In this document: positions 9,620 to 41,474 of the stretch, in pieces
How the letters are laid out: each line of letters begins with the position of its first letter
Position numbering within the stretch: position 1 is the stretch's first letter
Made by a program: the position numbers and the translations under genes
IMG/VR virus record: IMGVR_UViG_3300021092_000084
Span: 1-41,474 of that record
DNA: 41,474 bases
Strand: one strand, 5' to 3'
Source: a virus
Notes under the pieces: model-generated
What the model saw: only the letters and a program-made list of their open reading frames with translations
What the model was told of the DNA's origin: nothing
Databases searched by the model: none

Positions 9620-9951
9620 TATGATACCCCTGGTGTTACTAGAACATTTCCTTGAACAGCTCTTGTTTTATAAGAATTTGGAGAAATTAAAATAACATCA
9701 TAGACATAACGACCCCCTTCAATTGCATCAGTTGCAGTATATCCCATGGAAACGGTAATTTTTCCATTTATTCTATCAGGAAAAGTCAATAGTAATGGAT
9801 ATGCAGTGGAAGAAGTTGGGTGTTTTCTAATTGAAGAAATGCCCGTATACCCAGTCAAATTTAATGGTGCATTATTTGTGTTCCTGATCGTAAAGGTGGC
9901 TTGAAAATCAACCCCTTGTTCAAGAACTAAGTTTACATTCCTTGCCGCCAT
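9619..9951 (-). CDS. Small structural protein, 110 residues, beta-sandwich type
   Basis: The sequence MAARNVNLVLEQGVDFQATF, then NAPLNLTGYTGISSIRK and GRYVYDVILI, has the pattern of small Ig-like or BppU-N-like phage baseplate domains (QGxDxxxxxxxxxxxxxPLNLTGY). It is a single compact domain with no transmembrane or signal segment. The stop overlaps the ATG of the 225-residue gene by one base, so the pair is likely made together. A possible late promoter lies just upstream. The domain class is inferred from pattern only. I cannot say whether it joins the baseplate or the fibre. Confidence 0.65.
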   Translation of the reverse strand: MAARNVNLVLEQGVDFQATFTIRNTNNAPLNLTGYTGISSIRKHPTSSTAYPLLLTFPDRINGKITVSMGYTATDAIEGGRYVYDVILISPNSYKTRAVQGNVLVTPGVS

Positions 9952-19341: not shown

Positions 19342-19348
19342 TATTTAG
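19342..19348 (-). promoter_or_regulatory. Possible late promoter CTAAATA upstream of gp8
   Basis: The minus strand reads CTAAATA, related to the T4 late core and to motifs described upstream of cyanophage late genes. It overlaps the stop codon of the giant gene and is 20 bases upstream of the gp8 ATG. Confidence 0.35.
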
Positions 19349-31300: not shown

Positions 31301-33216
31301 CTAAATGATAGTTTTATATTGTTTGGATCAACAGAAGTGACATAGTAGTAACCGGTGGATATTCCAGAAGAATTAAAATTATTTGTATTATAAAATATTA
31401 AATTACCATTTGAATAGTTATGACTTGGAACATAAAAAGTTGACGTAAATCCTTGAAATTCTGCAGGTCTATTTGATTGTACAAACGTTTGTACGGTTCT
31501 TTTATCATCGGTCACGTAAATTGTATAATTTGGCAGTCCCGAAGAAGTCACATAAAAATACTTATTATCTTTACCCAAATAACTATTTTGAACTCCAGTA
31601 GGATATTTTACAATATCAGGAAAATAATTAGTATAGTGATTTGATTTATTAATTGTTTTTTGTATACATTTAATTTTATTTACATTTATACCTACTTGTG
31701 TAAGTTGCACCAATATTTGATTGGAATATTTTTTAATCTGATCAGAAATAGGAAACTCGATGCCTATAATTTCAGCCTGAACAAAATTAGAGTTTTCATC
31801 AAAAACTAATATTTTCTCTTGGTTATATGCAGATATTTTATCATATAGAGTAAATCTAAACTTATTTGAACTTTGTTGTTCAGATAATTCAACATCATGT
31901 TTTGTTGGAATATTGTATATCCATGAATTAAATCTCACATCATCCAATAAATTTTTACCAAAAGAAGATAATTTAATTTTATCCCCTACTCTTAGATTAT
32001 TAGTAGTTTTATAATCAATATCTTGAATAACATTTACGACTCTAAATTCTACTTTAGAAGTATTTCCAAATCCAACATAACTATAAGCAAATTTATCTTC
32101 TACTAAGAAAAGCCCATAATTTAATTTTTTTGTTACACCAGTTACTCCTAAAAATTGGGTGGAAGTTTTATCCGTATAAAAAATTTCTATAAAGTCTGAA
32201 TTTTCGGGTTTGACTAAAATTTTTCCAGATTTTTCAAATCCAACAGTAGAATCAACTATAATATTGTTAGCTCCCACTTGAACATCTTCAAGTATTTTTG
32301 TTTGGCCTGTAGCTCGAAAAGTTCCAGAGAGGGAAGATGAATCTAAAGAAATTTCATATAAATTTTTACCTGATACTGGTCTGAATTCTATATTAAAGAT
32401 AGAACCGGTTGCGGTTGAAATACCAGTATTTTGAAATAAAAAGTTTCCTTTAGTGTTTACTGGATCTGCTCCAGAAATTTTCTCTACAAGAATATTTTTA
32501 GTAACAAAAAAAGTATCTGAAGATGGTTTTAATGTAAAATCATTTGGTTTTATTACATCAATATCACTTCCATACAATACTTTGAATAAAAATTTATAAG
32601 AAGAATCTGTACCTTTTGAAATATAAAAATTTCTTGCATTTAAAAGTACATTTTCTATCGAAACATTTTCATCAAAATTTCTATTTTCAAATCCAAGGAA
32701 AAACTCATACTTAAAATTCTCATAGAATTTAAGTAAAAATAAATTACTTAAATTAATAACCTCAGATCCGGAAGAATGTTCAGTTGCTGAAGTTTTAGAA
32801 AAATTTAAAAATTCAGAATTTTCAAAAGATTCTATAGAATCAATTCCAGAAAATCCTCTGATACACCCAGTAAACGTATTTGTCGTTATACCAGTATATG
32901 TGATGATTTCATCATTAATTTTTAATAATCCATATGTATCTGGCCAACCATCTGTACTATCTACTGTTATAGTGGTGTCATATGTCAATAGATTACTACT
33001 TAATTCAGTTGCCGCAACCAATTTTAGTGGGTTGAATTCACTTGTACTTTTATACTTGTTTATATTTGAAGCTAAATCAACCGTTCCAGACTGATGTTCT
33101 AAAGATTTGTAATATTGTCTTAAAAACTCAACAAATAATGGAGAGTCTTCACTTAGAAATTGGGGAATTTGAGATTCTATTATAGAATCAATTTTTACTC
33201 TTTTAATTTCTGACAT
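19345..33216 (-). CDS. 7: Giant gp7-like baseplate wedge protein, 4623 residues
   Basis: Lies between gp6 and gp8, the T4 gene 7 position. Residues 15-40 (SQIPQFLSEDSPLFVEFLRQ) and 190-230 (FYISKGTDSSYKFLFKVLYG) resemble T4 gp7 FEAFCEAYIQYLSDGYG and FYSTKGIEASYKFLFKVLY. Residues 2395-2435 (NVPYSTWRESVRSIVHPSGF) resemble T4 LPSSRWKSDVIRFVHPVGF. T4 gp7 has 1032 residues and the blocks are close together there. Between and after them are: GGxGY beta repeats (about 730-790 and later); a YHYH domain (1230-1345; GYAYDGNPIYGPYGYG, then EHNGRFCVTPEYPDGVYAYF); a helical module in tandem (about 2540-3040) shared with the left-edge fibre; two DISNSF modules; a BNR-like propeller (about 4055-4365; FVAVGSNGTVISSDNGTSW); and a C-terminus with KLYDFQNRSLS and VYTDNGLTGLSTSP. 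A host-binding role for the insertions is inference. The start ATG is one base from the gp6 stop. Confidence 0.88.
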   Translation of the reverse strand: MSEIKRVKIDSIIESQIPQFLSEDSPLFVEFLRQYYKSLEHQSGTVDLASNINKYKSTSEFNPLKLVAATELSSNLLTYDTTITVDSTDGWPDTYGLLKINDEIITYTGITTNTFTGCIRGFSGIDSIESFENSEFLNFSKTSATEHSSGSEVINLSNLFLLKFYENFKYEFFLGFENRNFDENVSIENVLLNARNFYISKGTDSSYKFLFKVLYGSDIDVIKPNDFTLKPSSDTFFVTKNILVEKISGADPVNTKGNFLFQNTGISTATGSIFNIEFRPVSGKNLYEISLDSSSLSGTFRATGQTKILEDVQVGANNIIVDSTVGFEKSGKILVKPENSDFIEIFYTDKTSTQFLGVTGVTKKLNYGLFLVEDKFAYSYVGFGNTSKVEFRVVNVIQDIDYKTTNNLRVGDKIKLSSFGKNLLDDVRFNSWIYNIPTKHDVELSEQQSSNKFRFTLYDKISAYNQEKILVFDENSNFVQAEIIGIEFPISDQIKKYSNQILVQLTQVGINVNKIKCIQKTINKSNHYTNYFPDIVKYPTGVQNSYLGKDNKYFYVTSSGLPNYTIYVTDDKRTVQTFVQSNRPAEFQGFTSTFYVPSHNYSNGNLIFYNTNNFNSSGISTGYYYVTSVDPNNIKLSFSKSDIFSKKYLEAKSGISSDTIVIGGFANKTLNHQKILKKFPFTPTKVSSADDISKRTTNNKQVGLMVNGVELLSSTYYDENIFYGPIDSIDVTNKGVGYDVVNPPTIEIIDSSGLGAKAHANLSGKVEKIKIISPGIGYQSKPKINIFGGNGAGCSLESNLVKSRLSYGFKSEINVDDTNNIISFLTNIAFEDGEEIVYDSNTNLDVPGLVNGSSYYVGIVSDSKIKLYTTKEESLKKINEVNIIGVSSGFHYFSTLKSKNTITEIYVKDPGQGYSNRKVKVLSVLSFDNDTIGINTFDSYVFAPNHGFSDVELVTYSTTGTPISGLNTSHYYYIKVLDENKFKLSFAGVGISSLTTDNYVNKKYIKFESLGVGTHIIGYPPITISVEATSSLGSTSIISPILKPVVLGQIEDIYLETGGVSYGCTDIVNFHRRPFVGVSSIKSEASLVPIVVNGKIVDVKITNGGKGYREDSDIIITGDGDFAKIEPIINSEGKLVQTNIIDGGVGYGISNTSIRLENRGKSAKFLANLKQWKVDQVVKFQNYTNENDDSILLDPQNQELGLQVCSYYIPKKLRYQLSDNFTASNKETSGELRHSPIFGYAYDGNPIYGPYGYGNASGGAIRQIKTSYVLKAVTDPDIRPSSFQAGYFVNDYVYDGSGDLDEHNGRFCVTPEYPDGVYAYFYSVDIDISKVAKNRYPYIVGPTFNNIPLEENFLPIYNQGYDFFTNEVTRNVGPYYLNYSRSSYGLIDNVSDNYKQEFQITNLNSGTIQDVSIFSPGHNYKVNDLILLDNKGSGGTGANIVISKLKGKEIKNISVQSKSFSNVVFVPKYNQIEAQFDTPHQFYNLEPVTISGVSTISAIELEGLYKINVNDKVVQLIESIPTQAVTGISTFIKVKDISGFSVNDFIGIGTETLLITGISPQRSGFFVNRISNTGVHTSGIDDVVLLPKKFTFKTENPIAGVFIPNTTTFFDPKESVGTGFSGITRTVVGLGTTSFESRFIPAKSIYLPNHKFYTGQPLTYNAGLSGTPLYINKVGSGVSFTIVNNQTVYAVNLGKDYIGISTVGYTTSTGIGTDLACVEFWNIDQAFGVVGSAHSLTTQNQNLTASVNRVSGIVTTSENHGLSVGDQVEFKILSTLTESHKLFFDKINRKVLIGQYTFNNSNVSLSNNSIKNTSFRNIKNGTKVVYFADNPLGGLTNGRVYYIFKKDVDIISFCEYESDIFISKEIDITSPSSGGSQSIKIINPQITPYKGSIISFDLSDASLSDMSLDFYVDSNFTRKIEFIGLFNDGFAITRSGIPGQTNASITINTNVNEFPKVLYYKLNPISPLDQSKNQISTDEEVVSFNKITVIEHQLNTKINIDLINSDNAFSFNSVKNLTDTELQILPSANISYTTTSENADGPIEDVKVNFGGRGYLKLPTISRIVSDSGNNAVLKLISNDIGKIETLTRIKDGFDYPTDPTLSAQLSSIIVCGIKNIRTIDKIEILNAGKKYNTAPVLFVKNGGNIELKSSISGGSIVKVDIIKNSTSLSSPLEIIPIYNSNGYEIDAFTISGNDVTIELLNTPISYPLVNIGYGSTIVQFPFSIGDKIFIEKCTLTSQTSGLANFNSSSYDYTFFTVTGVSTSNNTITYSMSGISTGSFGTYDDERRGYVINKKDMASFEMVLKDDVTYQSSEKVVSPGFSGRIMENGWDDKLNQMRIIDSSGTFKIGDSLFGETSKITGVVEYLSSFELNSTLGAIRDKENSSNNDGILNEFQQRISDNFYYQKFSYSLRTNVPYSTWRESVRSIVHPSGFQEFSDYTLYTQPTSNEVLVGISKSENMKPKLLGSSSSLLFNIDSEVDFASIKNYALVYEDDLYPDGSTDKIFFTEGVELKPYILNETNKVLRIDDISPEFTGTTEVYLNGRYADAASLLELNNEFIQQEVLSFVQFNYPNIGLSTTYNVSYIVDAVTHDLKYNSNNLSVEAGLSYWNAGYSYTSAETDRILFAYNYVKFIGQYIINNQTPPTLYQTAVAQKFNFEIIQDPLNVTSTKFKNARNLILLNKREIQDRSLSAVAVGFPTGFYFPGDSQTNSRSRYYRAYQLIQINRTEIVNTAWNNTVAVYPAIAATEVSCKRDLGYLVDAISLDLFTGGNAYSRLFVLKYFDNGLPIVNGLVGEVAESTFAFGQAQTLMRTAVTNGLTLKNLNSTPGPTIFGGGGGNVAITSTAACTDVQNTIISLVGIVSTIISVGSTATLPIANPGTYNTGGLKCFRDLGYIIDGVAQDISYGTNQHTIYNTKKYFNGAGVALTNGLVGEESQSILVFETSKYFMKQAITNQLYARNLTIEPDPLTGVNTTTNSYLDIQTNINTLVGILTVAIGNSSLSGIPTENYGTTDCADVRTSLGNYVGIITTIIGLGTSFAPTMTYPSLTLGGGIVGLTTFKLKNKGTSLFKHVFNSASENVISLSSNTLTIFNHNYQTGQELDYNFSDGSPIGIATTSYVGSGATVLMQVHKLTGTAIFENGYSVAITTSVTGVSTVLSPVGPTSKLYLQAVGLGTAGIGTNARFNILINYNSSTGQPISTSVILMEGGRSYSVGQTVSIAGTYLGGVTPTNDLTFKISSVGPTGIQTRANETYLNVPSTDTNGAIFNVTRNGSGYVSVVDVVQGGVGYATTSIVSIAGTYLGGSSFDFVSFSPAVLGSKILPKTVFVYKLSDNQFGLLGLSTSSTFLNITQLGIGSHSLSLKNPNANAFISIDNIVQPPLSRTSLIIGLSSAVSTATTTILNISSGITSVVVGDVIALNNEYLNVKNVLLSQNKLDVERGSFGSTIGIHSVGIAGTVFKGKFNIVGDTIIFATAPYGLTGPTGVQTGSSFSGRVFSRQINANEPRDKNIILDDISNSFTGIAATQFTVKVDGNTTTTLFNNVNNSSNISNNPLIFINGVFQTPSVDVTVENSITNSLAFLSGTPSAGRISVVSISTSFGYQPRLVASADAIVSAAGTISSIVVNGGGSGYRNAPPVSLASTIGYGASLVAFVGTSGTTLGIVTSIKVVTPGIGYTITSPPTVVIGIPTGYSNLGLAYTGGTSGVGQQAKITVEVGSGSSIIDFKFDNPGIGYKVGDKLKVVGIPTVHSGPLTEFVLTVDVVETDSFSGFYPGQFIKFNDISNSFNGFRKKFTLSTEINGVTEIINLRTPTGSDLDITNNIFIFLNDILQDPTYSYTFRGSRVIFTEAPIAGSKCTILYYRGSSVDVSEITPPKTIKEGDTVTIQESATDIFDIQQFDRVVKTLTSSDQLDTFIYSSIGIDDDVSKFRPLTWKKQKQDRIISGTLFSKSRPSVQANIFPNAHIIKKIEASDDVIYVDNAFPLFSDLDQLNENIRDIFITENRTVIDSIGQATVSGASTVSSIIIANAGVGYANTLSPKVRISTSSIKKKDPIYNWKYVNISGITSSSVFNNISYGNQFVAVGNSSLFAYSFDGQLWTTGNVGVGSTVNLKSVKKVSIGSSDIILTVGTKAKIAQAVGYSSTITSWDQIPCFEEITLVGVGVIGYNPTTYNGSFNSITYGSNGWVVVGTGGSIFTSSGIITSRFVSRYSGVNQDLNSIAYGNQYFVAVGSNGTVISSDNGTSWEINQSGVPSFQKYNEVIFDGSKFVVVGNNGTILKSINRTQYQVVSNNINSSENIIDITYFDGLYVGITSVNKMYYSFDLQNWTYRNTLQSNQLNDALFANSLGLDGTFVAVGAAGTIITSTPVYHGATAQSVVTNGQVSSINITDGGFGYFNYDIPSVIIESEIFKKELIRSFKVKGDYGNIIGVTTFLAGTPGIGTTSPKIDFRLKSETYDNSTLGIGYSSPNTFGVTASQLQKGDYFVISQSNVQTDGSLIGISTLLGGMSNYPNSKIGIATNFLDGVYIVENVTTPFAGIVTVTCHFAPDSGTSVSVSDRGTYDSNTSTFSGINTNGFYGRYSWSKLYDFQNRSLSLGGSKSFDVYTDNGLTGLSTSPRVIRTRPNLSN
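20120..21050 (-). other. BNR-like beta-propeller segment of the gp7-like giant
   Basis: Within residues about 4055-4365, blades repeat the pattern ISYGNQFVAVGN...SFDGQLWTT, ITYGSNGWVVVGTGGSIFTS, IAYGNQYFVAVGSNGTVISS, FDGSKFVVVGNNGTILKS and FDGLYVGIT...SFDLQNWTY. The SxDxxxW Asp-box-like turns are those of sialidase/BNR and Ycf48-type propellers. Five to seven blades are visible. Binding of a glycan or protein is inferred from fold class only. Confidence 0.7.
24090..25590 (-). repeat. Helical module in the giant, shared with the left-edge fibre
   Basis: Encodes YVKFIGQYIINNQTPPTLYQ, RSRYYRAYQLIQINRTEIV, CKRDLGYLVDAISLDLFTGG, NGLVGE, MRTAVTNGL, NSTPGP and STAACTDVQN. The fibre at 1-1180 encodes the same string in the same order: YVKFIGQYVINNQSPPTLYQ, CQRDLGYFVDAVSTDVFTGG, NATPGP and STAACTDVQN. 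The giant also contains a second diverged tandem copy (CFRDLGYIIDGVAQDISYG, then NGLVGEESQSI). DNA similarity is visible too, for example 488-526 against about 25042-25080. Confidence 0.9.
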
Positions 33217-33217
33217 T

Positions 33218-35128
33218 TTATCTAGTATACTGTCCGTTTAGATAGCTTGATGTTGAAACATATTGTGTAGCTGAAATATTTTCACCTGAGGTAATACTAT
33301 CTTCAATCATATTTACCACTGATTTTTGTATATCAACTTGAAGATATAAATCTTTCAATCCAATAACATCATTGGATTCGGGAATAGCTTGAACTTCGAT
33401 TACTCCACTCTCTGTAGTTGAATCTATTATATTTACCACATTCAAAAGTATCTCTCCTTTTTTATAATCAATAGTTCCAGCATTTGCAGTAACTATCGTA
33501 GGAACATTATTTGTCAATTTAAAAAAGAATATTCTTCCAAAATTTGTCGTTTTAGATGTATCTAATGTTCCCGCTGTTGCACTATCTTGTACTTGTACAT
33601 CCGCCATATAAATTATTTCTGAAGTTCCAAATATTTTAAATCCTGTTGATTTAATGGAGTATCCATTTTTTTTAATATGTATTCTATTTCCAAAACATAA
33701 CTCATATGTTGCAGCAGTGTTTAATTTTGGAATTAAATCTCTCCTCATTCTAACTTTTGTTATATTCGATGTTACTGCTTTATCGGAATCATCAATTAAT
33801 CCAACAACCTTACTATATTTGAATCTTCCGCCAAAACTATTAACATCAGAAGATTTTGAGTATGTTGTTAAAGTATTTAAAATTTTTCCTCTGATAGATT
33901 CTGGACGAGTAGACCTATTTACGTTGTAATAAACGGAAGAATCTATTTCAACATACAAATATGACAAATCAACAATTTCTGGCTTAATGCCAGCTATTGA
34001 ATATTGTTTTAATGATCTGGATATTTCCTGTTTTGTTAAAGATGATAAAAATTGCCCATTTCTTGGTTTTATAGAAATGAATACTTTACCATATTCAGGT
34101 GGATCCAACTCTTCTCCACCATAAGCAGTCACAGAATCAACATTTGAATATATGTACGGTATCAATCCCTTATAGTCATTTGCTGTTACTGCTCTATACT
34201 GAGAAGCATAAACTCTTGGAGCCAAATATTTAATTGAATCAATATTTTCAATTTCATCACCATTTTGTGATGGAAACTCAGTAAGAGGTAAAGAAACTCC
34301 AGAAGAAATTTCTTCAAGATTATTATCTTTCAATATTCCGGCAAAAGTAAAATTATTTGCACCATTACCAGAAGTACCACTCGTAACAATATAGCTAACT
34401 TCAATTCTGCTTCCATCTGGAGGTCTTTTTCCTAAAATATCATCCCCAAATCTAATTTCATATTTTTGATCGGAAACTTCCTGAATCAAAAATATTCTAG
34501 AGTCTTTATTAATGTTTAAAATATTATTATAAATTGTATAAATTTCAGTAACTTGATCTGTAACTTTAATTCTAATAGTAGTAGTATCAATATTTGGATT
34601 TGGTAAAATAAATCTTTGATTTTTTTGGGAATAATCCATTATAAAAGTACTAGTTAAATATCTCCCCTCATATACTTCTAAATTATTAAAATGTGCAAAT
34701 CCATCACCTTCTATAGGAGTGGTTACATTTTCTGGAATTGAAAATATAAAATTGCCACCAACTACAGCCCCTAATACAATAGTGCCTGCATAAACAGTAA
34801 CTGTTCTAGAATTGTTATTGTTTCTCATATCCACTGAGAAACTTATTTTTGTCCTTGAAGATCTTCTTGACCTAGGAACATAACCTATATTACGAGCCAG
34901 TGAAACAACATTTTCTCTAAGAGTTGCACTATCTAAGAAAGTTTCATTTACTGCCATATTCGTATTATAGGCAGTAATATAACTATTGTATGCTAAGAGA
35001 TCAATTAGTGTAGAAAAATTAGATCCTTCAAAATCAAAGTCGGTGAACTCACTATTTGCTCGCAAATAGTCTTTGATCTGTATTCTTAGATCGTTAAAGT
35101 CTAAATTTGTGAATTGATTAAATGACAT
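33218..35128 (-). CDS. 6: Baseplate wedge protein gp6 (baseplate J family)
   Basis: At 636 residues it is close to T4 gp6 (660). The N-terminal half carries the baseplate J pattern: DFDFEGSNFSTLIDLLAYNS at about 25-50, ETFLDSATLRENVVSLARNI, then GYVPRSRRSSRTKI, followed by a beta domain with FGDDILGKRPPDGSRIEVSY at about 225-250. RAVTANDYKGLIPYIYSNVD at about 310-335 is also typical. gp6 forms the ring that holds the wedges together around the hub. The ATG shares one base with the gp25 stop, and the gp7-like giant starts one base after its own stop, so gp25, gp6 and gp7 look like a coupled unit. Nothing looks truncated. Confidence 0.95.
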   Translation of the reverse strand: MSFNQFTNLDFNDLRIQIKDYLRANSEFTDFDFEGSNFSTLIDLLAYNSYITAYNTNMAVNETFLDSATLRENVVSLARNIGYVPRSRRSSRTKISFSVDMRNNNNSRTVTVYAGTIVLGAVVGGNFIFSIPENVTTPIEGDGFAHFNNLEVYEGRYLTSTFIMDYSQKNQRFILPNPNIDTTTIRIKVTDQVTEIYTIYNNILNINKDSRIFLIQEVSDQKYEIRFGDDILGKRPPDGSRIEVSYIVTSGTSGNGANNFTFAGILKDNNLEEISSGVSLPLTEFPSQNGDEIENIDSIKYLAPRVYASQYRAVTANDYKGLIPYIYSNVDSVTAYGGEELDPPEYGKVFISIKPRNGQFLSSLTKQEISRSLKQYSIAGIKPEIVDLSYLYVEIDSSVYYNVNRSTRPESIRGKILNTLTTYSKSSDVNSFGGRFKYSKVVGLIDDSDKAVTSNITKVRMRRDLIPKLNTAATYELCFGNRIHIKKNGYSIKSTGFKIFGTSEIIYMADVQVQDSATAGTLDTSKTTNFGRIFFFKLTNNVPTIVTANAGTIDYKKGEILLNVVNIIDSTTESGVIEVQAIPESNDVIGLKDLYLQVDIQKSVVNMIEDSITSGENISATQYVSTSSYLNGQYTR

Positions 35129-35526
35129 TAGACTCTAGTTGGTTGTAATATGAAGTCTACTGTTTGAGGAGGAATTGATAATCCAATAACATCGTAAGAT
35201 ATTGCAATATTTAATTCATTAGTATAATCTGGATAACTAACTTCAACAGAAGATATTTTAATTCTTGGTTCAAAATTCTTAAGCAAAATTTCAATATCTA
35301 TTTGTAAAGATCTAGCTAAAGGAATTGATTGAAGTTCAAAAACTGAACTTTCAATATTAGTTCCTATAAGACTATTAAAAAATTTTTCTCCAATTCTAGT
35401 TCTAACTAGATTAACTACAGATTTTTTAATAGCATCAGCATCATTTAATGATAAAATATCATTAGTTACAGGATTTCTAGTAAATGAAAGACTAATGTCT
35501 CTAAATTTTCTAGAAATCCTTCTCAT
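35128..35526 (-). CDS. 25: Baseplate wedge protein gp25 (GPW/gp25 family)
   Basis: The family pattern of lysozyme-like gp25 is clear: DIKKSVVNLV-type text appears as DADAIKKSVVNLVRTRIGEK, followed by FFNSLIGTNIESSVFEL and LNIAISYDVIG. The length, 132-133 residues, equals T4 gp25 (132). The ORF can begin at GTG (35529) or the next codon ATG (35526). I prefer the ATG, and the choice changes only one residue. gp25 links the sheath-initiating part of the wedge to gp6 and gp53. Its stop overlaps the gp6 ATG by one base. AATAAATA, a late-like motif, lies 16 bases upstream. Confidence 0.93.
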   Translation of the reverse strand: MRRISRKFRDISLSFTRNPVTNDILSLNDADAIKKSVVNLVRTRIGEKFFNSLIGTNIESSVFELQSIPLARSLQIDIEILLKNFEPRIKISSVEVSYPDYTNELNIAISYDVIGLSIPPQTVDFILQPTRV

Positions 35527-35541
35527 CACTCAAACTAAGGG

Positions 35542-35549
35542 TATTTATT
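35542..35549 (-). promoter_or_regulatory. Possible late promoter AATAAATA upstream of gp25
   Basis: The minus strand reads AATAAATA, one base from TATAAATA, just upstream of the gp25 start in the 36-base gap after the 96-residue gene. It is placed to drive the gp25-gp6-gp7-gp8 block. The leader would be very short. Confidence 0.4.
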
Positions 35550-35565
35550 ATATGTATAAGACCTT

Positions 35566-35856
35566 TTACCACTTTTTACCATAGGTTGGTTCAGTTCCGT
35601 ATGACCAATCATCATAATCTTCATCATTACGAATCTGCTCATGTAGTTGATTTTGCGTTTTTATCCGCTCAGAGAAGAACCCATACCCATAAGTATAGTG
35701 TCCGCTATAATCTTTACCTTCGAAAGTCACTAATTTTGCTTCTAAATCTTCAATTTTCTTCAAAAAATCGTCAGATCCATAATCAGTGATCAATTTTGTG
35801 GTCCCCCACGTTTCCTTCATGTAATTCGAGTCTCTATCGACTGGTAAATTTGACAT
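35566..35856 (-). CDS. Hypothetical protein, 96 residues
   Basis: Not recognised as a named family. It is acidic and rich in Tyr, Trp and Asp, with KIEDLEAKLVTFEGKDYSGH as a likely helix (residues about 30-50) and a C-terminus with DDWSYGTEPTYGKKW. There is no transmembrane or signal segment. The ATG has a good ribosome binding site (AGGAG, 6 bases upstream), and a perfect 7-bp hairpin abuts that site. It lies directly ahead of gp25 and may be a baseplate or assembly factor by position only. Confidence 0.75.
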   Translation of the reverse strand: MSNLPVDRDSNYMKETWGTTKLITDYGSDDFLKKIEDLEAKLVTFEGKDYSGHYTYGYGFFSERIKTQNQLHEQIRNDEDYDDWSYGTEPTYGKKW

Positions 35857-35864
35857 TTTAGCTC

Positions 35865-35881
35865 CTGATTTGTTAAATCAG
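35865..35881 (-). promoter_or_regulatory. Hairpin abutting the ribosome binding site of the 96-residue gene
   Basis: A perfect inverted repeat, ctgattt/aaatcag with a 3-base loop. On the mRNA the 3' arm ends CAG and runs straight into the AGGAG site, sharing bases with it. No T-run follows, so termination is unlikely. It could influence ribosome access. Confidence 0.45.
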
Positions 35882-35898
35882 AACTTTTTACGGGGTTG

Positions 35899-36366
35899 CT
35901 ATCCCGAAATTTCGTCTGTCATTACCGATTCGTACTCATCACCAAGTATTTTTTTAAGATATTCTTCGTTCCAATAAGTATAATACTCAGTTTTTGCTAA
36001 TTTTTTGCGAATTTTGCTCAATTTTACCTTAGATTGACACAAAATTAAGTTAAATTTCTTATTATTTGTTTGAACCCCATTGATAAAAGTAGGTTGAGAC
36101 GCACAATCTTCAAAAAATGTGTAGTAGGGGAACTTTTCATTATAGATATCTACCCATTTCTTAACTTGAGTTAAATTCCAAAAGTCATCTACAATAAAAA
36201 TGATGACATCATAACCTGGTTCAGGTACAATATCATCAATTGGACACTCAATAATTTTATTTTTAGAGTTAGAAGCATAAGGACAAACAGAGAATCCTCC
36301 AAGTTCTTCTCTTTCTTTAGCTACATCTTTAGCCCATGATAAAATATAAGCTTCTTTTTCATTCAT
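35899..36366 (-). CDS. Hypothetical protein, 155 residues
   Basis: Not recognised with confidence. Residues 1-30 are a helix followed by GGFSVCPYA, a Cys-Pro-Tyr motif. The middle (PGYDVIIFIVDDFWNLTQVK) alternates strand and helix, and the C-terminus (KVKLSKIRKKLAKTEYYTYW) is basic and helical, then acidic. The order of strands and helices suggests a small alpha/beta domain. The ATG has a ribosome binding site (AGGA) inside the end of the upstream 52-residue gene, two bases away, so translation is probably coupled. I can offer no function. Confidence 0.7.
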   Translation of the reverse strand: MNEKEAYILSWAKDVAKEREELGGFSVCPYASNSKNKIIECPIDDIVPEPGYDVIIFIVDDFWNLTQVKKWVDIYNEKFPYYTFFEDCASQPTFINGVQTNNKKFNLILCQSKVKLSKIRKKLAKTEYYTYWNEEYLKKILGDEYESVMTDEISG

Positions 36367-36368
36367 AA

Positions 36369-36527
36369 TTATCCTGCTGCAAGAGGAGAATTTGGATTTG
36401 GCTTAGAAACGTAATTACTTCTTACTTGTTGTGCAACATTATAACCAAAAACTTTAGCATCTACTGGAGGAGTTTCAGGAGCATCTGCAAGATTTGGTCC
36501 TAGTTTTGGATTTAGGTCTTCTGACAT
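36369..36527 (-). CDS. Small hypothetical protein, 52 residues
   Basis: ATG at 36527, TAA at 36369. The sequence starts MSEDLNPKLGPNLADAPETP, is proline- and asparagine-rich in both halves, has VFGYNVAQQVRSNYV in the middle, and ends SKPNPNSPLAAG. It looks unstructured apart from a short central helix. It is packed two bases from the next gene, and a CTAAATA motif lies about 26 bases upstream. Its tight spacing and open frame support a real gene. Function unknown. Confidence 0.6.
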   Translation of the reverse strand: MSEDLNPKLGPNLADAPETPPVDAKVFGYNVAQQVRSNYVSKPNPNSPLAAG

Positions 36528-36551
36528 TGTGGTGAAAATAATAACTTAAAA

Positions 36552-36662
36552 TTATTTAGACTTTTTGCCTTTATTTGCTTTTGCTTGGGTTTTAATACCT
36601 TTATATCTTTTATCTGGTCGGCAAAGATTGCCCTCTCTTACTGTTCTTTGAGTTTTACTCAT
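36552..36662 (-). CDS. Tiny basic protein, 36 residues
   Basis: ATG at 36662, TAA at 36552. It starts MSKTQRTVREGNLCRPDKRY and then is almost all Lys, Ala, Gly and Gln to the end (KGKKSK). The ATG overlaps the TGA of the 50-residue gene as ATGA, a classic coupling. The strong basic charge suggests nucleic-acid or virion binding, but no family is recognised. Confidence 0.6.
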   Translation of the reverse strand: MSKTQRTVREGNLCRPDKRYKGIKTQAKANKGKKSK

Positions 36663-36811
36663 TTTCCTTGTCCTCGATAAGGTTTACGAGCCTTGTTACG
36701 GCTTGTTGCAGCATATTTAGTTCCAGTTCCCATACCTTGACGAGTCAGTTTGGGTTTTCCAGGTACATAACCTACATTTTTATTTAATCCACCTTTTGAT
36801 TTTACTGCCAT
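36659..36811 (-). CDS. Small basic Gly/Lys-rich protein, 50 residues
   Basis: ATG at 36811, TGA at 36659. It starts MAVKSKGGLNKNVGYVPGKP, has many Lys and Arg, and ends RKPYRGQGK. A good ribosome binding site (GAGGT) sits about 9 bases upstream. It is followed by the 36-residue gene through an ATGA overlap. Both are strongly basic and may bind nucleic acid or the virion, which is inference. The region upstream contains a direct repeat of CGCGCCAAAA. Confidence 0.65.
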   Translation of the reverse strand: MAVKSKGGLNKNVGYVPGKPKLTRQGMGTGTKYAATSRNKARKPYRGQGK

Positions 36812-36842
36812 TTTTCTAATACCTCACAGTTGGTTTTACTTG

Positions 36843-36873
36843 CGCGCCAAAATTGCCTTCAAACGCGCCAAAA
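36843..36873. promoter_or_regulatory. Operator-like direct repeat cgcgccaaaa, 21-bp spacing
   Basis: cgcgccaaaa occurs at 36843-36852 and 36864-36873, 21 bp apart, which is two helical turns. It is the main GC-rich patch within the AT-rich part, upstream of the 50-residue gene. The spacing suggests a site for a protein dimer. No repressor was seen in the window. Confidence 0.35.
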
Positions 36874-36901
36874 CATTAATTTCTAGGAATTCGACACATA
36901 A

Positions 36902-37654
36902 TCAAAGAATACGAGTCTTTTCATGTCCTACGCGAATCTTCGGATCACACCAGATCTCAAATCCCGCCTCTTTTGCATCAAGACAGAACGATACGTCTTC
37001 ACCACACATATCTTGAACCTCTCCAGAGTCAAAGACTTGCATCTTTGGAGCGAACCAGGGATACTCTAGAGACTCAAATACACCCTTCTTAATCAGAACC
37101 CAACCAAACCCCGTATAATCAACCGTAAAGGGCTTACGGCGCTTCTGCATAGTCTCTCCGGTCTCATGATTCATCACTCCACCATTGTTCCTAAAGTCAT
37201 CTTCTTCAAGCCAATGAGCAACTGAAGTCGTTTGACCATCTTCAGTCATATACCAACCAGCCGCAATATCCTTATCCATTGCGACAAGACGATAAAACTT
37301 CTCGGTATCAAATACAATATCGTTATCAATCCAGAGTTGGTAATCATAGTTGAGTTTACCATCCCAAGGAATCTGTTTTGGACCACGTAGAACGTTTGCA
37401 CCAAGACACTTGCAACGTGCAAAGTTTACCATGGAAGAGTAATCCTGTGAGATTTGAATACTTGCACCAGATTGTACAAGATCAAAACACAATTGAACAA
37501 AATTCTTTAAAAAGATATAAGAACATGAACGACCAGGTAAACAAAATATAATATTTTTACCTTTTACCAACTCTTTTGCAGACTGTAGATCGAAATCTTC
37601 TTCGTTCTTTTTTGGAGTTGGAGCTGTAGCTTTAATTGTAAATCCTTTAGACAT
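36902..37654 (-). CDS. GT-A-like glycosyltransferase, 250 residues
   Basis: The sequence has a GT-A layout. IIFCLPGRSCSYIFLKNFVQ (residues about 34-55) is an alpha/beta start. LWIDNDIVFD near 107-116 is a DxD-type metal-binding motif. GWVLIKKGVFE follows in the middle, and QDMCGEDVSFCLDAKEAGF near 215-235 supplies an acidic helix with Cys residues. This fits glycosyltransferases carried by T4-like cyanophages, acting on sugar or DNA substrates. The acceptor is unknown. The ATG lies 17 bases after the expected start of transcription from a sigma-70-like promoter. It is separated from the rest of the glycan cluster by a 49-residue gene. Confidence 0.75.
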   Translation of the reverse strand: MSKGFTIKATAPTPKKNEEDFDLQSAKELVKGKNIIFCLPGRSCSYIFLKNFVQLCFDLVQSGASIQISQDYSSMVNFARCKCLGANVLRGPKQIPWDGKLNYDYQLWIDNDIVFDTEKFYRLVAMDKDIAAGWYMTEDGQTTSVAHWLEEDDFRNNGGVMNHETGETMQKRRKPFTVDYTGFGWVLIKKGVFESLEYPWFAPKMQVFDSGEVQDMCGEDVSFCLDAKEAGFEIWCDPKIRVGHEKTRIL

Positions 37655-37677
37655 AAAATTAGAATTGCAATGTTTTC

Positions 37678-37706
37678 ATTATACCACCACAAGTCAATTC
37701 ATGCAA
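37678..37706 (-). promoter_or_regulatory. Sigma-70-like promoter for the glycosyltransferase
   Basis: The minus strand has TTGCAT (37706-37701), a 17-base spacer and an exact TATAAT (37683-37678). The start codon lies 24 bases downstream of the -10 box. This is a host-polymerase type, probably early, promoter. A CTAAATA late-like motif (37725-37719) lies further upstream. Confidence 0.5.
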
Positions 37707-37734
37707 TGGTTTCTGATTTATTTAGAATGTTAAA

Positions 37735-37884
37735 TTAAAGACATTCTTCATCAATTTTTGATAATAGATCTTCAATTTCGTTTTTGAGAGATTCGTTAAT
37801 TACTAAGACTTTATCAACATCAAGACGATATTGAATACAGTCGATCAGTAAATCTTTTTCCTGATAATCCAACTTAAGTTCCAT
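37735..37884 (-). CDS. Small acidic helical protein, 49 residues
   Basis: ATG at 37884, TAA at 37735. It starts MELKLDYQEKDLLIDCIQYR and continues as a highly charged pair of helices with leucine heptads (NEIEDLLSKIDEECL at the end). It appears to be a coiled coil without a membrane segment. It lies between the acyltransferase and glycosyltransferase genes in the same direction. The codon pattern matches its neighbours. Function unknown, possibly a small oligomerising or regulatory protein. Confidence 0.55.
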   Translation of the reverse strand: MELKLDYQEKDLLIDCIQYRLDVDKVLVINESLKNEIEDLLSKIDEECL

Positions 37885-37929
37885 ATATTTAATGATTCAT
37901 TTCAAACATTATATAGGATTTTTATTTTT

Positions 37930-38535
37930 TCAATTTTGTTCTGGAACATATCGAGCAATAGATCCAAGATATCTTCCTGGCTTTGTAATATCTTTAGTTA
38001 CATTACTATATGCACCTACAGTAACATTGTCAATAATTGTTGTTTTACTCAGTACTGAGGATTTGAATTTAAATATACAATTTTCCCCAATATTTGTTTT
38101 ACCTGCGATAGCAACTCCAGAGTGCAAGACACAACACCGGCCCATATTCACATGATGTGCAATTAGACAATAACTTTCAATCCAACAATGATTTCCAATA
38201 TCACTTGCATATAACGCTGAACTGAATGCACCAATGAGTACACCTTTGCCTAATTTACATGTTTCTGGAACTAAACAAGTATCGTGTACATAGGTAATAC
38301 AATCTAAATTCAAATTATCAATTTCATCACAGATAATTTTTCTTAGGTCTGTATCAATACAAAATGCAACAAGATATTGATAATCAGACTTATTCGTTAA
38401 CTCTAAAAATAATTCTGGAGTAATTACATCTATTTGATTCTTCGATTCTGGTAAAACAAAATTTAATGCTGTCTCGACCATTGAAGATTCTGGATAGCCA
38501 ATAAATTTAACTGGCTTATCATTTTCTAAAATCAT
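37930..38535 (-). CDS. PglD/NeuD-like left-handed beta-helix acyltransferase
   Basis: Residues 1-95 are a small alpha/beta domain, as in the sugar-binding N-terminus of PglD. Residues about 95-190 carry hexapeptide repeats of a left-handed beta-helix: LGKGVLIGAFSS, IGNHCWIESYCLIAH, VNMGRCCVLHSGVAIAG, IGENCIFKFKSS and VTVGAYSNVTKDI. The His pair in IAHHVNMG occupies the place of the catalytic His of PglD/NeuD acetyltransferases. These enzymes acetylate an amino-sugar using acetyl-CoA. The gene overlaps the preceding one by four bases (ATGA). In this cluster it probably modifies a surface sugar, which is inferred. Confidence 0.82.
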   Translation of the reverse strand: MILENDKPVKFIGYPESSMVETALNFVLPESKNQIDVITPELFLELTNKSDYQYLVAFCIDTDLRKIICDEIDNLNLDCITYVHDTCLVPETCKLGKGVLIGAFSSALYASDIGNHCWIESYCLIAHHVNMGRCCVLHSGVAIAGKTNIGENCIFKFKSSVLSKTTIIDNVTVGAYSNVTKDITKPGRYLGSIARYVPEQN

Positions 38536-39692
38536 ACTTTATCTGAAACTGAAACTTTAAAATGCTCTAAGGCTTTTTTAATTTTACCATGATTATATGT
38601 TCTTTGGCATGTTTTATCATGCATAAAATTATCCAGTCGATCTACATTATCTTTGAATCTTTTTTCATTATCGTGCCATAACTCACTGATATTTGTTGAT
38701 CCATTCAATAATGTTTCATTTCGATCAATTGCAGCCGCAAGTCTTTCAAATGGATTCTCAATCTCATCATAACTATGATCAATAATATCATCAAACGTAT
38801 CGATATCCAAATAGCTTTTAATTCCTTTTACCATCCCAGGCCCATTCAGATAGATTGGAAAATTTTGGCCATAGATCGATTGTAGTTCTTTTTCGCTGAG
38901 TAATGGAGATCTTTCAAAAAAGATTGATCCAGGTATAATTTCAATTCCAACATTTTCATAAGCTGGTTTTATATTTGTATTGTAATTATTTGCAACTCGA
39001 TCATCATTTTTTGCAAAGTCATCAATGGATAATAAATTAAAATCTTTTTCTTTAAACCGTGTAAAACCTTTTGTTAAAGTTCTTTTTAACTCATTTGACA
39101 ATATTGCTACATCTGATATATTTTTATATTGAGGAAAGGTTGAAAGTGTTGATTCATCCATTCTAACTGAAATATCACCATTTCGATAATAATCTTTAGA
39201 TAACAAATAACATATTGCTAAAATTTTATGTAATTTAGTATTTCGATTTAATGATATCCATCGATTTGAAATTTCTTTTTTTTCAACAGGAGTAAAATTA
39301 CTTGCAAAACTTGTAGGTATAATTGAATCAAAATATAAATTAGGAATATTAAACTGTTTTTGAAGATCTAAATGAACATTGAATATAATAAAATTTTGTT
39401 CTGAGTGATTTTTACAAAATTGCGTGATCTGTTTTATATCCAGATTATCATATTCATCGACTATTGAATCCATGATATTTAAAATCACAACTCTACTACT
39501 AAATTCAATTTGATTTAAATCATTAAAAGATGTTCCACTGGCGTAAGGACAATACAATAATTGATAACATTCGATATTTTCACCAATTTCATGCGTATCC
39601 AAAAAACTTTCAAGTGTATCGTTAAATGGTACACCTACAAATGAAGATAATGTGTTAATTCTAGAAATATTTTTGGAAGATTTCTTTTTCAT
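38532..39692 (-). CDS. Putative glycosyltransferase-like protein, 386 residues
   Basis: Residues about 260-330 (FFERSPLLSEKELQSIYGQN, GPGMVKGIKSYL, FDDIIDHSYDEIENPFERLA) match a phage pattern I know from fucosyltransferase-like proteins (SEK...P...GPPGSLK...FDDIIDESYDEIxDPxER). That motif forms the nucleotide-sugar binding C-terminal half in those families. The N-terminal half is not recognised. It overlaps the preceding oxygenase gene by 32 bases and the acyltransferase by 4, so the three are one operon. Length and start (ATG, then KKKSSKNIS) look complete. Function is inferred from the C-terminal motif only. Confidence 0.6.
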   Translation of the reverse strand: MKKKSSKNISRINTLSSFVGVPFNDTLESFLDTHEIGENIECYQLLYCPYASGTSFNDLNQIEFSSRVVILNIMDSIVDEYDNLDIKQITQFCKNHSEQNFIIFNVHLDLQKQFNIPNLYFDSIIPTSFASNFTPVEKKEISNRWISLNRNTKLHKILAICYLLSKDYYRNGDISVRMDESTLSTFPQYKNISDVAILSNELKRTLTKGFTRFKEKDFNLLSIDDFAKNDDRVANNYNTNIKPAYENVGIEIIPGSIFFERSPLLSEKELQSIYGQNFPIYLNGPGMVKGIKSYLDIDTFDDIIDHSYDEIENPFERLAAAIDRNETLLNGSTNISELWHDNEKRFKDNVDRLDNFMHDKTCQRTYNHGKIKKALEHFKVSVSDKV

Positions 39693-40263
39693 TTGATAGT
39701 CTCATTGAGAGTAAAATTCTTGGCAATTCTTGATTTAAAATTCGAACGCTATGAAGTTCTTTGACATTCATTAATGTTGGAATATCTAAGACGTATTTAT
39801 CTATTTCGTTACAATCATTCAGATCATAATATGTCCCTGTCCCCCATCGGTGTGAATGAAGTACTCCTTTAATATCTTCATTCTTTTTTTGATAGAAAAC
39901 TGTTTCTGCACTTTCTCCATTTAAAATAGGCCAATTTAATCGAATTCTTTTTCCAGTTGATGAATTACCCGCATCTGTGTGTATTGGAACATGAGTATCT
40001 ATATCTACAAAAAGATATGATGCAAATATAACCTCAGAGTTTAATTCTTTATGAATACATTCAAATAATTCTGGAATATTTTTTTTAAATTCTTGAAGGT
40101 TTTCTTCTGAAATTAAATTGTAAAATAATTTTTCACTTCGATTTATAAACTGAATCACATAAGGACTTATAGTTTCTTGAATACTGTCAAAGTTATTAAT
40201 ATCAAGTTTCTTGTAATACACGTAAATTATTATGTGTTCCCTGTGATATTTAGGGGCCGGCAA
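39661..40263 (-). CDS. 2OG-Fe(II) oxygenase-like protein, start uncertain
   Basis: The pattern VPIHTDAG (residues 93-100), KELHSV (about 171) and PRILLSMR (about 185) gives the H-x-D...H...R set of 2-oxoglutarate-dependent oxygenases of the aspartyl/asparaginyl hydroxylase or phage cupin type. There are further features: RLNWPIL after HTD and a central HSHRWGTGTYYD. The longest frame opens with a TTG at 40263, just where the base composition changes. There is no ATG near it. The next candidate is a GTG about 14 codons later, and a weak AGGGA lies upstream of that. It is the first gene of the glycan operon and may hydroxylate a protein or sugar; the substrate is unknown. Confidence 0.65.
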   Translation of the reverse strand: MPAPKYHREHIIIYVYYKKLDINNFDSIQETISPYVIQFINRSEKLFYNLISEENLQEFKKNIPELFECIHKELNSEVIFASYLFVDIDTHVPIHTDAGNSSTGKRIRLNWPILNGESAETVFYQKKNEDIKGVLHSHRWGTGTYYDLNDCNEIDKYVLDIPTLMNVKELHSVRILNQELPRILLSMRLSNEKEIFQKYF

Positions 40264-40487
40264 AAAAAATTTTGAATACGAAAGGCTTTATGAGCGCTTT
40301 TTGGGGTCGTTATAGATTAGGGTAGTGAGCGGTTTTATATACGGGGGCCACCGCGCCCCGCGCTAACATAAACCGCGCACAAAACCGCTGCTCAAACTGC
40401 GCCAGCTACACGAGCATCGCTGCTCCTCCTAGGTCTATTCGTGTCCCCTCCAAGTGCTCATAAGCCTCAGAGGGGACACATAAGCCC
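40264..40487. other. Non-coding junction between AT-rich and GC-rich DNA
   Basis: About 224 bases without a convincing gene, marking the change from about 33% to about 50% G+C. It starts with an A8 run and contains GC-rich text (ccaccgcgccccgcgc). Two stretches related to AAAACCGC appear inverted (gcggtttta, aaaaccgctgctc), and a 10-bp stem lies near the end. No tRNA or att site was seen. Confidence 0.6.
40441..40479. repeat. Strong 10-bp inverted repeat
   Basis: gtgtcccctc (40441-40450) and gaggggacac (40470-40479) pair perfectly across a 19-base loop. It lies 8 bases beyond the stop of the 81-residue gene on the minus strand. No T-run follows in either direction, so it could be a factor-dependent or bidirectional terminator, or a protein site. 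Confidence 0.6.
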
Positions 40488-40733
40488 TCAGCCGCTGGTC
40501 TTGAAGTATGCTGCACCGTTGCCCTCAGTGATAGCATTCTGTGCATGTGTGGCATGCCCATTGTATGCCTGACCGCGACGGTTAGTGTTAGTCCGAGGGC
40601 CATTCGTGCGGCTCATGATCAGCTCAGATTTCTTAGCTTTACGGGTGGGTAGCACAGTGTACTTAATCTGCCCCTGCACATCAGCAACCAGGAGATCCAG
40701 TTTGCTTGCTTTGGAGATGTCAATGTTGGTCAT
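40488..40733 (-). CDS. Hypothetical protein, 81 residues
   Basis: I place the start at ATG 40733 (MTNIDISKASKLDLLVADVQ). A TTG-initiated longer frame to 40781 would run into the end of the preceding gene. The N-terminal part has a helix and strand pair (LLVADVQGQIKYTVL). The C-terminal half is low complexity and basic (RTNGPRTNTNRRGQAYNGHA), ending NGAAYFKTSG. GC-rich codons differ from the rest of the window. It follows the NGWANYETW gene by 44 bases, so the two are probably one unit. No family recognised. Confidence 0.6.
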   Translation of the reverse strand: MTNIDISKASKLDLLVADVQGQIKYTVLPTRKAKKSELIMSRTNGPRTNTNRRGQAYNGHATHAQNAITEGNGAAYFKTSG

Positions 40734-40777
40734 GATGTTGTTAGCGAAGGTGTGTTGGAAAGTATAGACGAATGAGA

Positions 40778-41059
40778 TCAAAGCTCACTCATCATTTCAT
40801 TCATCTCCACATCACAGATCTTGTCATCGTTCCAGCTAACCCCATCAGGAGTTTGCATCAGATGACGACCAATCTGGCCCTCAGTCATACAACGAACGAA
40901 CTTAGCCCATGGGGTCTCAGAGTCACCACAGAAGGTCACACAAGCCTTCGCAGTGTTATACAGAAACTCATCATTGCCAATCCACAGAGCAGCATTCCAG
41001 GTTTCGTAGTTAGCCCAGCCGTTGTAGGTTGTCATGGTGGTTTGAGTGGTTTTGTTCAT
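40778..41059 (-). CDS. NGWANYETW-motif protein (DUF7249-like), 93 residues
   Basis: The motif YNGWANYETWNAALWI near residues 11-27 is shared by a family of small phage-associated proteins of unknown function that I recall as DUF7249. The rest has AKACVTFCGDSETPWAKF and a C-terminus with VEMNEMMSEL. I choose ATG 41059 (MNKTTQTTM). A second ATG at 41035 (MTTYNGWANYETW) is also possible, and an upstream TTG at 41143 is less likely. There is no strong ribosome binding site. The codons and G+C are unlike those of the main phage. No enzyme function can be given. Confidence 0.7.
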   Translation of the reverse strand: MNKTTQTTMTTYNGWANYETWNAALWIGNDEFLYNTAKACVTFCGDSETPWAKFVRCMTEGQIGRHLMQTPDGVSWNDDKICDVEMNEMMSEL

Positions 41060-41230
41060 ATGGCTAAGATACAGGTTCTGAGCCCCCTTTGGCGGTTCAT
41101 TGGGCCAGTTAGATAGCTGTCCATTGTGTCTCTCAGTTGTCAAGGTTCTATGGTAGGCTCATGAGTCTTTGTGGCTTGAGCTTTATCAAAGCTAGCTTCC
41201 TTATGAAACTCCACAGAGTCATTATAAGGC

Positions 41231-41452
41231 CTCCGAGGGCTTATGTCAAGAGCCTATGAGCTTTGCGGAAAACTTATACACTTTTTCCACAAGTTTTCCA
41301 CAGATTTGTTATACTTTTCCACAGCCCCTAAGTATAAGAACTCGGATGGCTTCTGAGAACTTGTGATAACCTGTGGAAAACTTTTGCTGTGGAAAACTCA
41401 TAAACTCTCGGAGACTTATGTATAGCAAATTGTGAGGGTTCTGAGACTTATG
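41231..41452. repeat. Short CTTATG-centred repeats (iteron-like)
   Basis: Variants of ctcggagacttatg occur at 41231-41245 (ctccgagggcttatg), 41407-41420 and 41439-41452 (ttctgagacttatg). Inverted copies (cataagcctcagag, cataagccctcag) occur at 40459-40472 and 40479-40491. An imperfect inverted pair spans 41399-41420. Several copies flank the DnaA-box cluster. Confidence 0.6.
41283..41396. promoter_or_regulatory. Cluster of five TTTTCCACA DnaA boxes
   Basis: Exact TTTTCCACA at 41283-41291, 41294-41302 and 41315-41323 on the plus strand, and TGTGGAAAA at 41372-41380 and 41388-41396 (minus orientation). The two groups face each other across about 48 bp. TTTTCCACA is the DnaA box reported for cyanobacteria such as Prochlorococcus and Synechocystis. 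The arrangement is typical of an origin. Confidence 0.6.
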
Positions 41453-41474
41453 TTCGGGTCCGGTTGACAAAATT

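Follow-up and report, generated by a model that had tools for sequence, protein, structure and literature searches.

Five exact copies of the cyanobacterial DnaA box lie within 114 bp at the right end of the viral DNA analysed here and, judging from its sequence, this cluster is probably part of a phage replication origin that recruits the DnaA protein of the host, an arrangement that would be shared by many large T4-like cyanophages. A host-DnaA-dependent phage origin was among the readings offered in the initial annotation, and it now stands as the best hypothesis because nine of 19 whole cyanophage genomes have such a cluster, each at one place only. The comparison suggests that cyanophages carrying such a cluster start the copying of their DNA with the host initiator, unlike phage T4.

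The window, by which we mean the whole stretch of DNA that was analysed, corresponds to a virus record in IMG/VR with a length of 41,474 bases. Exact copies of the 9-mer TTTTCCACA were found five times at 41283-41396 and nowhere else in the window. Three boxes on the plus strand face two on the minus strand across a gap of 48 bp. The features of the right end are listed below, where L131 is a related IMG/VR contig and E is a conserved element described further on.

40488..40781, minus strand: ORF of 97 aa after DUF7249, for which Pfam and PHROGs gave no family
40778..41143, minus strand: DUF7249 (PF23907 / phrog_871) gene, given as the longest ORF; translation may in fact begin further downstream
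41221..41249, minus strand: putative sigma-70-type promoter, TTGACA-17-TATAAT, 12/12 consensus, directed towards the DUF7249 gene; called from the consensus match alone
41264..41398, no strand: whole promoter-proximal box cluster, both ends of which align to the three-box cluster of L131 (9795-9836)
41283..41291, plus strand: DnaA box 1, exact match to TTTTCCACA
41294..41302, plus strand: DnaA box 2, exact match to TTTTCCACA, 11 bp after box 1
41315..41323, plus strand: DnaA box 3, exact match to TTTTCCACA
41372..41380, minus strand: DnaA box 4, exact match to TTTTCCACA
41388..41396, minus strand: DnaA box 5, exact match to TTTTCCACA
41464..41469, plus strand: TTGACA near the contig end; by alignment, the equivalent point in L131 is followed by a degenerate E and another box group

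The five boxes in 114 bp reported in the initial annotation were thereby confirmed, and they exceed what composition would give: in dinucleotide shuffles of the whole window, counted on both strands, TTTTCCACA occurred 0.77 times on average and three times at most, with five or more copies in 0/100. The window thus contains a cluster of species-type DnaA boxes beyond chance. The chance rate previously quoted for such a 9-mer, one per 130-260 kb per strand, proved slightly low, as the shuffles gave about one per 108 kb per strand, but the conclusion drawn from it stands. The looser E. coli consensus TTWTNCACA matched six times in the window (the five boxes and one site at 9084) against 7.4 expected, so that the enrichment is limited to the exact cyanobacterial form. 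The cluster of L131 has three boxes as compared with five in the window, the middle of 41264..41398 being extra, and a 20-mer spanning boxes 1 and 2 also occurs in the box clusters of several cyanobacterial genomes. By eye, box 3 is followed by GCCC and then by CTAAGTATAAGAA (CTAAGTATAAG) at 41315-41340, which is a DnaA-trio-like order of box, GC-rich spacer and trio.

Passages of PMC4674748 identify TTTTCCACA as the DnaA box of most cyanobacteria and mention assays for Anabaena and footprints for Cyanothece, and the 9-mer is given the same role in parts of PMC5987646. A pair of such boxes was present in 238 of the 291 cyanobacterial genomes of a class sample, with a reversed-pattern control near zero. 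Phage-encoded DnaA was rejected as the protein acting on the boxes, a DnaA domain having been found neither in T4 nor in any of the 22 phage records searched, which comprised the 19 isolates, G003, G004 and the window (20 large cyanophage genomes or contigs plus two fragments, one of these being the window); on control genomes the domain searches succeeded in 10 and 13 of 14. As TTTTCCACA is the cyanobacterial box and no DnaA domain was found in the phages, the DnaA of the host is the natural candidate. In cyanobacteria themselves, the DNA upstream of dnaN was inspected at 32 loci, nine of them with only 173 bp upstream: at least two TTTTCCACA occurred in six and at least four TTATCCACA in eight, counts that lean to TTTTCCACA-poor genomes since the 28 dnaN genomes were chosen largely for zero or one box pair. 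Several TTTTCCACA were seen upstream of dnaN in L595, L596, L613, L629 and L630, and TTATCCACA there in L632-L636 and L607. Six genomes of 2.1-2.7 Mb (L614, L615, L617, L621, L623 and L624), which are putative relatives of the marine hosts, judged by their size and gene order, and were picked as box-pair poor, had degenerate boxes at this place, at most one of them perfect, which weighs against taking a preference of the natural hosts' DnaA for TTTTCCACA for granted. Three of these (L621, L623 and L624), whose DnaA boxes there are only degenerate, share the DnaA-trio-like sequence CCTACTACG[A/G]CTGTT upstream of dnaN.

To map recurrence, TTTTCCACA was located in 19 whole large cyanophage genomes (144-252 kb, mostly filed under Kyanoviridae), a cluster being defined as at least two exact boxes within 50 bp. 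Clusters were found in nine: DSL-LC03, S-H38, S-MbCM6, S-PM2, Syn9, S-ShM2, S-RIM32, Syn33 and P-SSM7. All nine have one locus per genome, where the box groups lie no more than about 1.1 kb from each other, and most of them also carry scattered single copies elsewhere. The locus includes a second box group in S-ShM2, S-RIM32, DSL-LC03 and P-SSM7 and a further single box in S-H38 and Syn33; in S-H38 all boxes share one orientation. Second box groups were placed at 53068-53092 in S-ShM2, 46602-46631 in P-SSM7, 61859-61880 in S-RIM32 and 9795-9836 in L131. The remaining ten genomes (S-RSM4, S-CAM9, P-SSM2, S-CRM01, S-PRM1, RB11-B, S-SCSM2R, P-HM1, P-SSM4 and P-RSM4) have no cluster, although in S-PRM1 a single box stands 12 bp from a variant copy, and a one-mismatch scan of the seven box-less phages other than P-HM1, P-SSM4 and P-RSM4 gave no clusters of TTATCCACA or ATTTCCACA. 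The podoviruses P-SSP7 and Syn5 contain zero copies of TTTTCCACA, while T4 and PSS2 have two scattered copies each, those of T4 lying 10 kb apart and forming no cluster. Five IMG/VR contigs were also searched, with clusters in G003 (L131) and G004 (L134) and none in G001, G002 and G005. At loci coding for a DUF7249 protein, many of which are cut close to the gene, at least two boxes within 200 bp were found in 8/80.

When all canonical 9-mers were counted without bias in 15 genomes, TTTTCCACA was the one clustered (at least three copies in 300 bp) in most of them, namely 7/15; the runner-up reached 5 and, from its motif, looks like a repeat inside genes. Clustered 9-mers of S-CAM9, CTTCTGACC and CAGGTCCTA, were discarded, being spaced at multiples of 9 bp and looking like intragenic repeats. 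Against a null of permuted boxes, the observed score was reached in 0/60 permutations for S-MbCM6, S-PM2, Syn9, S-ShM2, S-RIM32, DSL-LC03 and S-H38 and in 1/60 for Syn33. A box pair spaced by 12 bp was set aside as a cyanobacteria-specific mark, as many phyla are among the matches listed in the contig scan. Absence of the cluster from related phages, which the initial annotation had held to count against its reading, was observed in 10/19 relatives and presence in 9/19, an outcome that goes mostly the other way. Its assumption that DnaA is not used by T4-like phages agrees with T4 itself but appears not to extend to many of the cyanophage relatives.

Gene tables around the boxes were read for eight of the nine cluster phages, P-SSM7 being left out. 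They contain small ORFs, mostly hypothetical, and neither dnaN nor dnaA is named beside the boxes in the eight tables, where many genes are labelled 'hypothetical'. On one side, at a distance of 1.5-6 kb, S-ShM2, Syn33, Syn9, S-MbCM6 and S-H38 have a helicase gene; within about 2 kb on the other side there is a baseplate wedge gene in S-ShM2 and Syn9 and a large hypothetical gene in Syn33. The box groups are intergenic in S-MbCM6, S-H38, DSL-LC03 and S-RIM32, and one group shares sequence with an annotated short ORF or tRNA in Syn9, S-ShM2, Syn33 and S-PM2. The next gene downstream is T4-GC 640 in S-MbCM6, S-ShM2 and Syn33, DUF7249 in the window and downstream of the box groups of L131 and L134, and neither of the two in S-PM2 and S-RIM32. 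In S-PM2 (NC_006820, 17.4-19.3 kb; L221), two of the annotated tRNA genes lie over the boxes and next to E. ARAGORN found no tRNA in a 9-kb stretch there and Rfam none at gathering threshold, and the tRNA annotation at the boxes looks wrong.

Downstream of the boxes, an AT-rich stretch is followed by a conserved non-coding element, E, with the sequence CTTAGCRYGYNNNCYAWCGANNNNCAA. Its first 20 positions occur exactly once and with zero mismatch in each of S-RSM4, S-MbCM6, S-PM2, Syn9, S-ShM2 and S-RIM32; in Syn33 they occur with two mismatches. The whole of E is found in P-SSM7 and P-RSM4, with two and three mismatches respectively. Weaker matches were left uncounted (S-SCSM2R at 53898, nhmmer E-value 0.0005; DSL-LC03 at 80273, E-value 0.8; P-SSM2 at 142565, three mismatches). 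In seven of the nine box-bearing isolates E follows the boxes at a distance of about 45-120 bp, DSL-LC03 and S-H38 being without a match to E, and E was found in 0/291 cyanobacterial genomes. Read on the other strand, E has the form TTGAC[T/A]-N17-TAAG[C/A]C and is directed at the AT-rich stretch and the boxes. TTGAC stands 17 bp from TAAG in 71 of 80 distinct copies, where the search pattern forces TTG and TAAG but not AC, and E can be read as a conserved promoter. Tandem repeats with a unit of some 12 bp, similar to GATACTGTGAAG, were noticed between the AT-rich stretch and E in several box-less loci (for example L506, L507, L526 and L528).

No match to E was found within the window itself. 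L131 extends further than the window does. Starting at DUF7249 (10001), it has a promoter region, then a group of three boxes (9795-9836), next a degenerate E and finally three more boxes (9530-9606); the degenerate E at 9688 is the sole match there, with two mismatches in 20 and an nhmmer E-value of 3.4. As the window aligns to this layout, its cluster corresponds to the promoter-proximal box group, and E together with another box group is predicted to lie within a few hundred bp beyond 41474, as in L131. The 176-kb contig L134 has boxes, an AT-rich stretch, an E-like sequence and DUF7249, the E-like sequence having been recognised by eye where the pattern search was negative. In G005 (L197) E is present and the box cluster is absent.

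These promoter-like sequences bear on a different reading of the locus as a DnaA-controlled promoter region, in which host DnaA would switch the neighbouring early genes and replication would not start there. A purely regulatory role is allowed by the 12/12 sigma-70-type promoter that adjoins the window cluster, by the TTGACA-17-TATAAT seen by eye after boxes and E in S-MbCM6 and Syn9, by the second box pair of S-ShM2, which ends 6 bp ahead of the next gene start, and by the promoter-like character of E. The gene downstream, however, varies among the phages whereas the order of boxes, AT-rich stretch and E is constant, and E is directed towards the boxes and away from the downstream gene. We regard control of transcription as an unlikely sole function of the locus.

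The association between boxes and E was quantified by a scan of IMG/VR for E, using a pattern derived from seven isolates. The scan returned 93 stretches, 81 of them distinct, and nine were dropped for short upstream sequence, leaving 72 loci among which S-PM2, Syn9 and S-RIM32 are themselves included. Within 260 bp upstream of E, at least one box was found in 40 of the 72 loci and at least two in 39, the commonest places relative to E being -121 and -109 on the plus strand and -86 on the minus strand. Control windows from the same loci contained at least one box in 0.87% of cases and at least two in 0/9129, and each of 1259 permutations of the box occurred at no more than 1/72 E loci. Considered from the side of the boxes, 18 among 120 box-pair contigs listed carry E, and in 15 of these it follows the pair by no more than 250 bp; most of the box-pair contigs listed are thus without E.

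The coupling to E also helps to judge whether the cluster could be a decoy that would soak up host DnaA and thereby stop host initiation or free replication resources. Multiple perfect boxes in the phages, as against the degenerate ones beside dnaN in six putative host relatives, are what a decoy might look like. A decoy would, however, require neither E nor a roughly fixed distance to it, and the few boxes in each genome would titrate DnaA only weakly until phage copies had become numerous, so that this explanation appears quite improbable to us.

Box-less E loci tell of a second type of sequence at the same position. Among the 32 of them, TTCTCAATA or its complement was found in 19, twice or more in 8, and neither in 13, as compared with 2 of the 40 box-bearing loci. 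S-RSM4 has E and the AT-rich stretch at about 140.2-140.3 kb, the boxes being replaced by TTCTCAATA/TATTGAGAA as an inverted repeat; since this phage has E without boxes, DnaA cannot be universal in the group. In 19/72 E loci and in S-RSM4, then, TTCTCAATA ... TATTGAGAATCAATAA repeats stand where DnaA boxes would be. They are possibly sites for another initiator, and the TTCTCAATA repeats may mark an initiator gene of their own in related phages.

Such loci, 32/72 without boxes and 19/32 with TTCTCAATA or its complement instead, could equally be taken to mean that the 9-mer is bound by another protein, of phage or host, or acts as a hairpin, the likeness to a DnaA box being only apparent. The window cluster is indeed a strong predicted hairpin (z -4.95, with equally stable shuffles in 0/200). 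Yet the boxes all point one way in 15 of the 39 E loci with at least two boxes and in S-H38, so that a hairpin is not a common feature; nothing reached the Rfam gathering threshold in five of the loci, and the 9-mer is letter for letter the cyanobacterial DnaA box as given in passages of PMC4674748. On balance we find this account highly improbable. One sub-threshold snoRNA match in the window (E-value 0.16) was regarded as chance and rejected.

For an origin recruiting host DnaA, these loci lead us to a tentative proposal, which we hold as possible rather than probable: the origin may be modular, one per genome, with a conserved core formed by the AT-rich stretch and E and an exchangeable initiator cassette, such that host DnaA and another starter would be switched while the T4-type replisome is kept. 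At E loci, host DnaA boxes are found in about half and the TTCTCAATA / TATTGAGAATCAATAA repeat in about a quarter, and the two rarely occur together.

We infer host DnaA binding, strand opening, helicase loading and a promoter function of E. Host DnaA would bind the perfect TTTTCCACA boxes and would open the AT-rich DNA beside them, and the opened DNA would let the T4-type helicase, primase and polymerase of the phage load; recombination-dependent replication would succeed this DnaA start later. As a promoter, E would direct transcription back across the AT-rich stretch towards the boxes, and such transcription may assist opening or provide a primer. Of nine genomes tested, duplex instability near E was unusual in S-RIM32, S-PM2 and S-RSM4 only (combined p 0.0004-0.007, kinship being ignored). 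GC skew, which had been suggested as a check in the initial annotation, brought no consistent support: no extremum was found at the locus in the window, in 15 isolates and T4, or in seven isolates when centred on E. A slight upward step is present in four related genomes (with 3-5 kb flanks, 5-14% of positions equal it) and the opposite in S-PM2; for phage genomes that recombine we regard GC skew as a weak test.

Chromosomes, plasmids and some phages are known to have origins with DnaA boxes. With cyanobacterial oriC (Synechococcus elongatus PCC 7942, Anabaena PCC 7120 and Cyanothece ATCC 51142) the cyanophage locus has in common the same 9-mer TTTTCCACA, pairs with an 11-bp period and, in the window, the 20-mer of boxes 1 and 2 that recurs in cyanobacterial box clusters; it differs in that no dnaN or dnaA was found there, in its setting among small phage ORFs and in the presence of E, seen in none of the 291 cyanobacteria. 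P1 oriR represents a type of plasmid or phage origin which has DnaA boxes plus an initiator of its own, and the likeness is that a mobile element has DnaA boxes next to an AT-rich sequence, whereas the cyanophage locus is without an identified initiator gene. T4 has several origins, and its oriF and oriG are promoter-primed. A possible promoter into the AT-rich stretch would be a point of likeness to oriF and oriG, and T4-type replisome genes are another, but T4 has no DnaA-box cluster and its several origins compare with one candidate locus per cyanophage genome.

The T4-type replisome genes of cyanophages are listed in a section of PMC2984593, where a single theta origin predicted for Syn9 is also cited (Weigele et al. 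2007) and the origin of T4-like cyanophages other than Syn9 is stated not to be known. One candidate locus per genome is what we find as well, and Syn9 is a box-cluster phage (boxes at 52.55-52.68 kb). DnaA boxes in a cyanophage are not described in the accessible portions of the openly licensed PubMed Central literature, which included PMC3037559, PMC5835720, PMC7198777, PMC4674748, PMC6293099, PMC2297514, PMC9927357, PMC6359870, PMC7150976, PMC5987646, PMC12510456 and PMC2984593, although their absence is unproven; the DnaA genes in marine viromes that are cited in a passage of PMC6359870 are a matter distinct from phage DnaA boxes. Those portions give no account of a recurrent DnaA-box origin in T4-like phages that is tied to E and can be exchanged for another repeat, and such an origin would be new with respect to them. 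T4-like cyanophages are abundant viruses of sunlit water, and the locus provides a precise place for a test in nine sequenced isolates. If our reading is true, host DnaA would start a T4-type replisome, tying phage replication to host initiation control, and the initiator cassette would be exchangeable between relatives.

The window as a whole is a piece of a T4-like cyanophage with baseplate genes on the minus strand, and the families recognised include the gp6 family (PF21379, phrog_219), the phrog_438 baseplate wedge and DUF7249. DNA matches of its right end are Synechococcus and Prochlorococcus phages. Some of the short alignments obtained are to unrelated phages. Contig L122 is 99.9% identical to the window over 30779-41076, GC jump included, and L123 is 95% identical over 40255-41041 and 100% over 41058-41184; both stop short of the cluster. 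For L131 the identity is 77% over 40247-41250, and further alignments cover the cluster parts 41264-41294 and 41385-41469. The cluster adjoins cyanophage DNA (DUF7249 / phrog_871), on which L122 and L131 agree, and the earlier suggestion of an origin from a plasmid, the host or another phage was not upheld. Mis-assembly of plasmid, host or other DNA onto the phage could be read into the increase in GC at 40.26 kb (about 28% before it and 49% after), the mere 78 bp of contig after the cluster, and a right-end 27-mer absent from all other IMG/VR contigs together with the ends of L122 and L123 before the cluster, but it is hardly conceivable, as the GC junction is found independently in L122 and L123, the gene and box cluster recur in L131 at about 77% identity and the same kind of cluster stands inside complete isolate genomes; a misjoin or foreign fragment was rejected on these grounds.

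The GC step itself (40255-41474) lies within a phage contig and is present in an independent contig too. Many contigs with DUF7249 (L122, L123, L124, L126, L127, L132, L137 and others) end no more than about 100 bp from the 5' side of the gene, as if a repeat-rich stretch breaks assemblies there. Elsewhere in the window, between the baseplate genes, a single open frame of 4623 aa extends over 19345-33216 on the minus strand.
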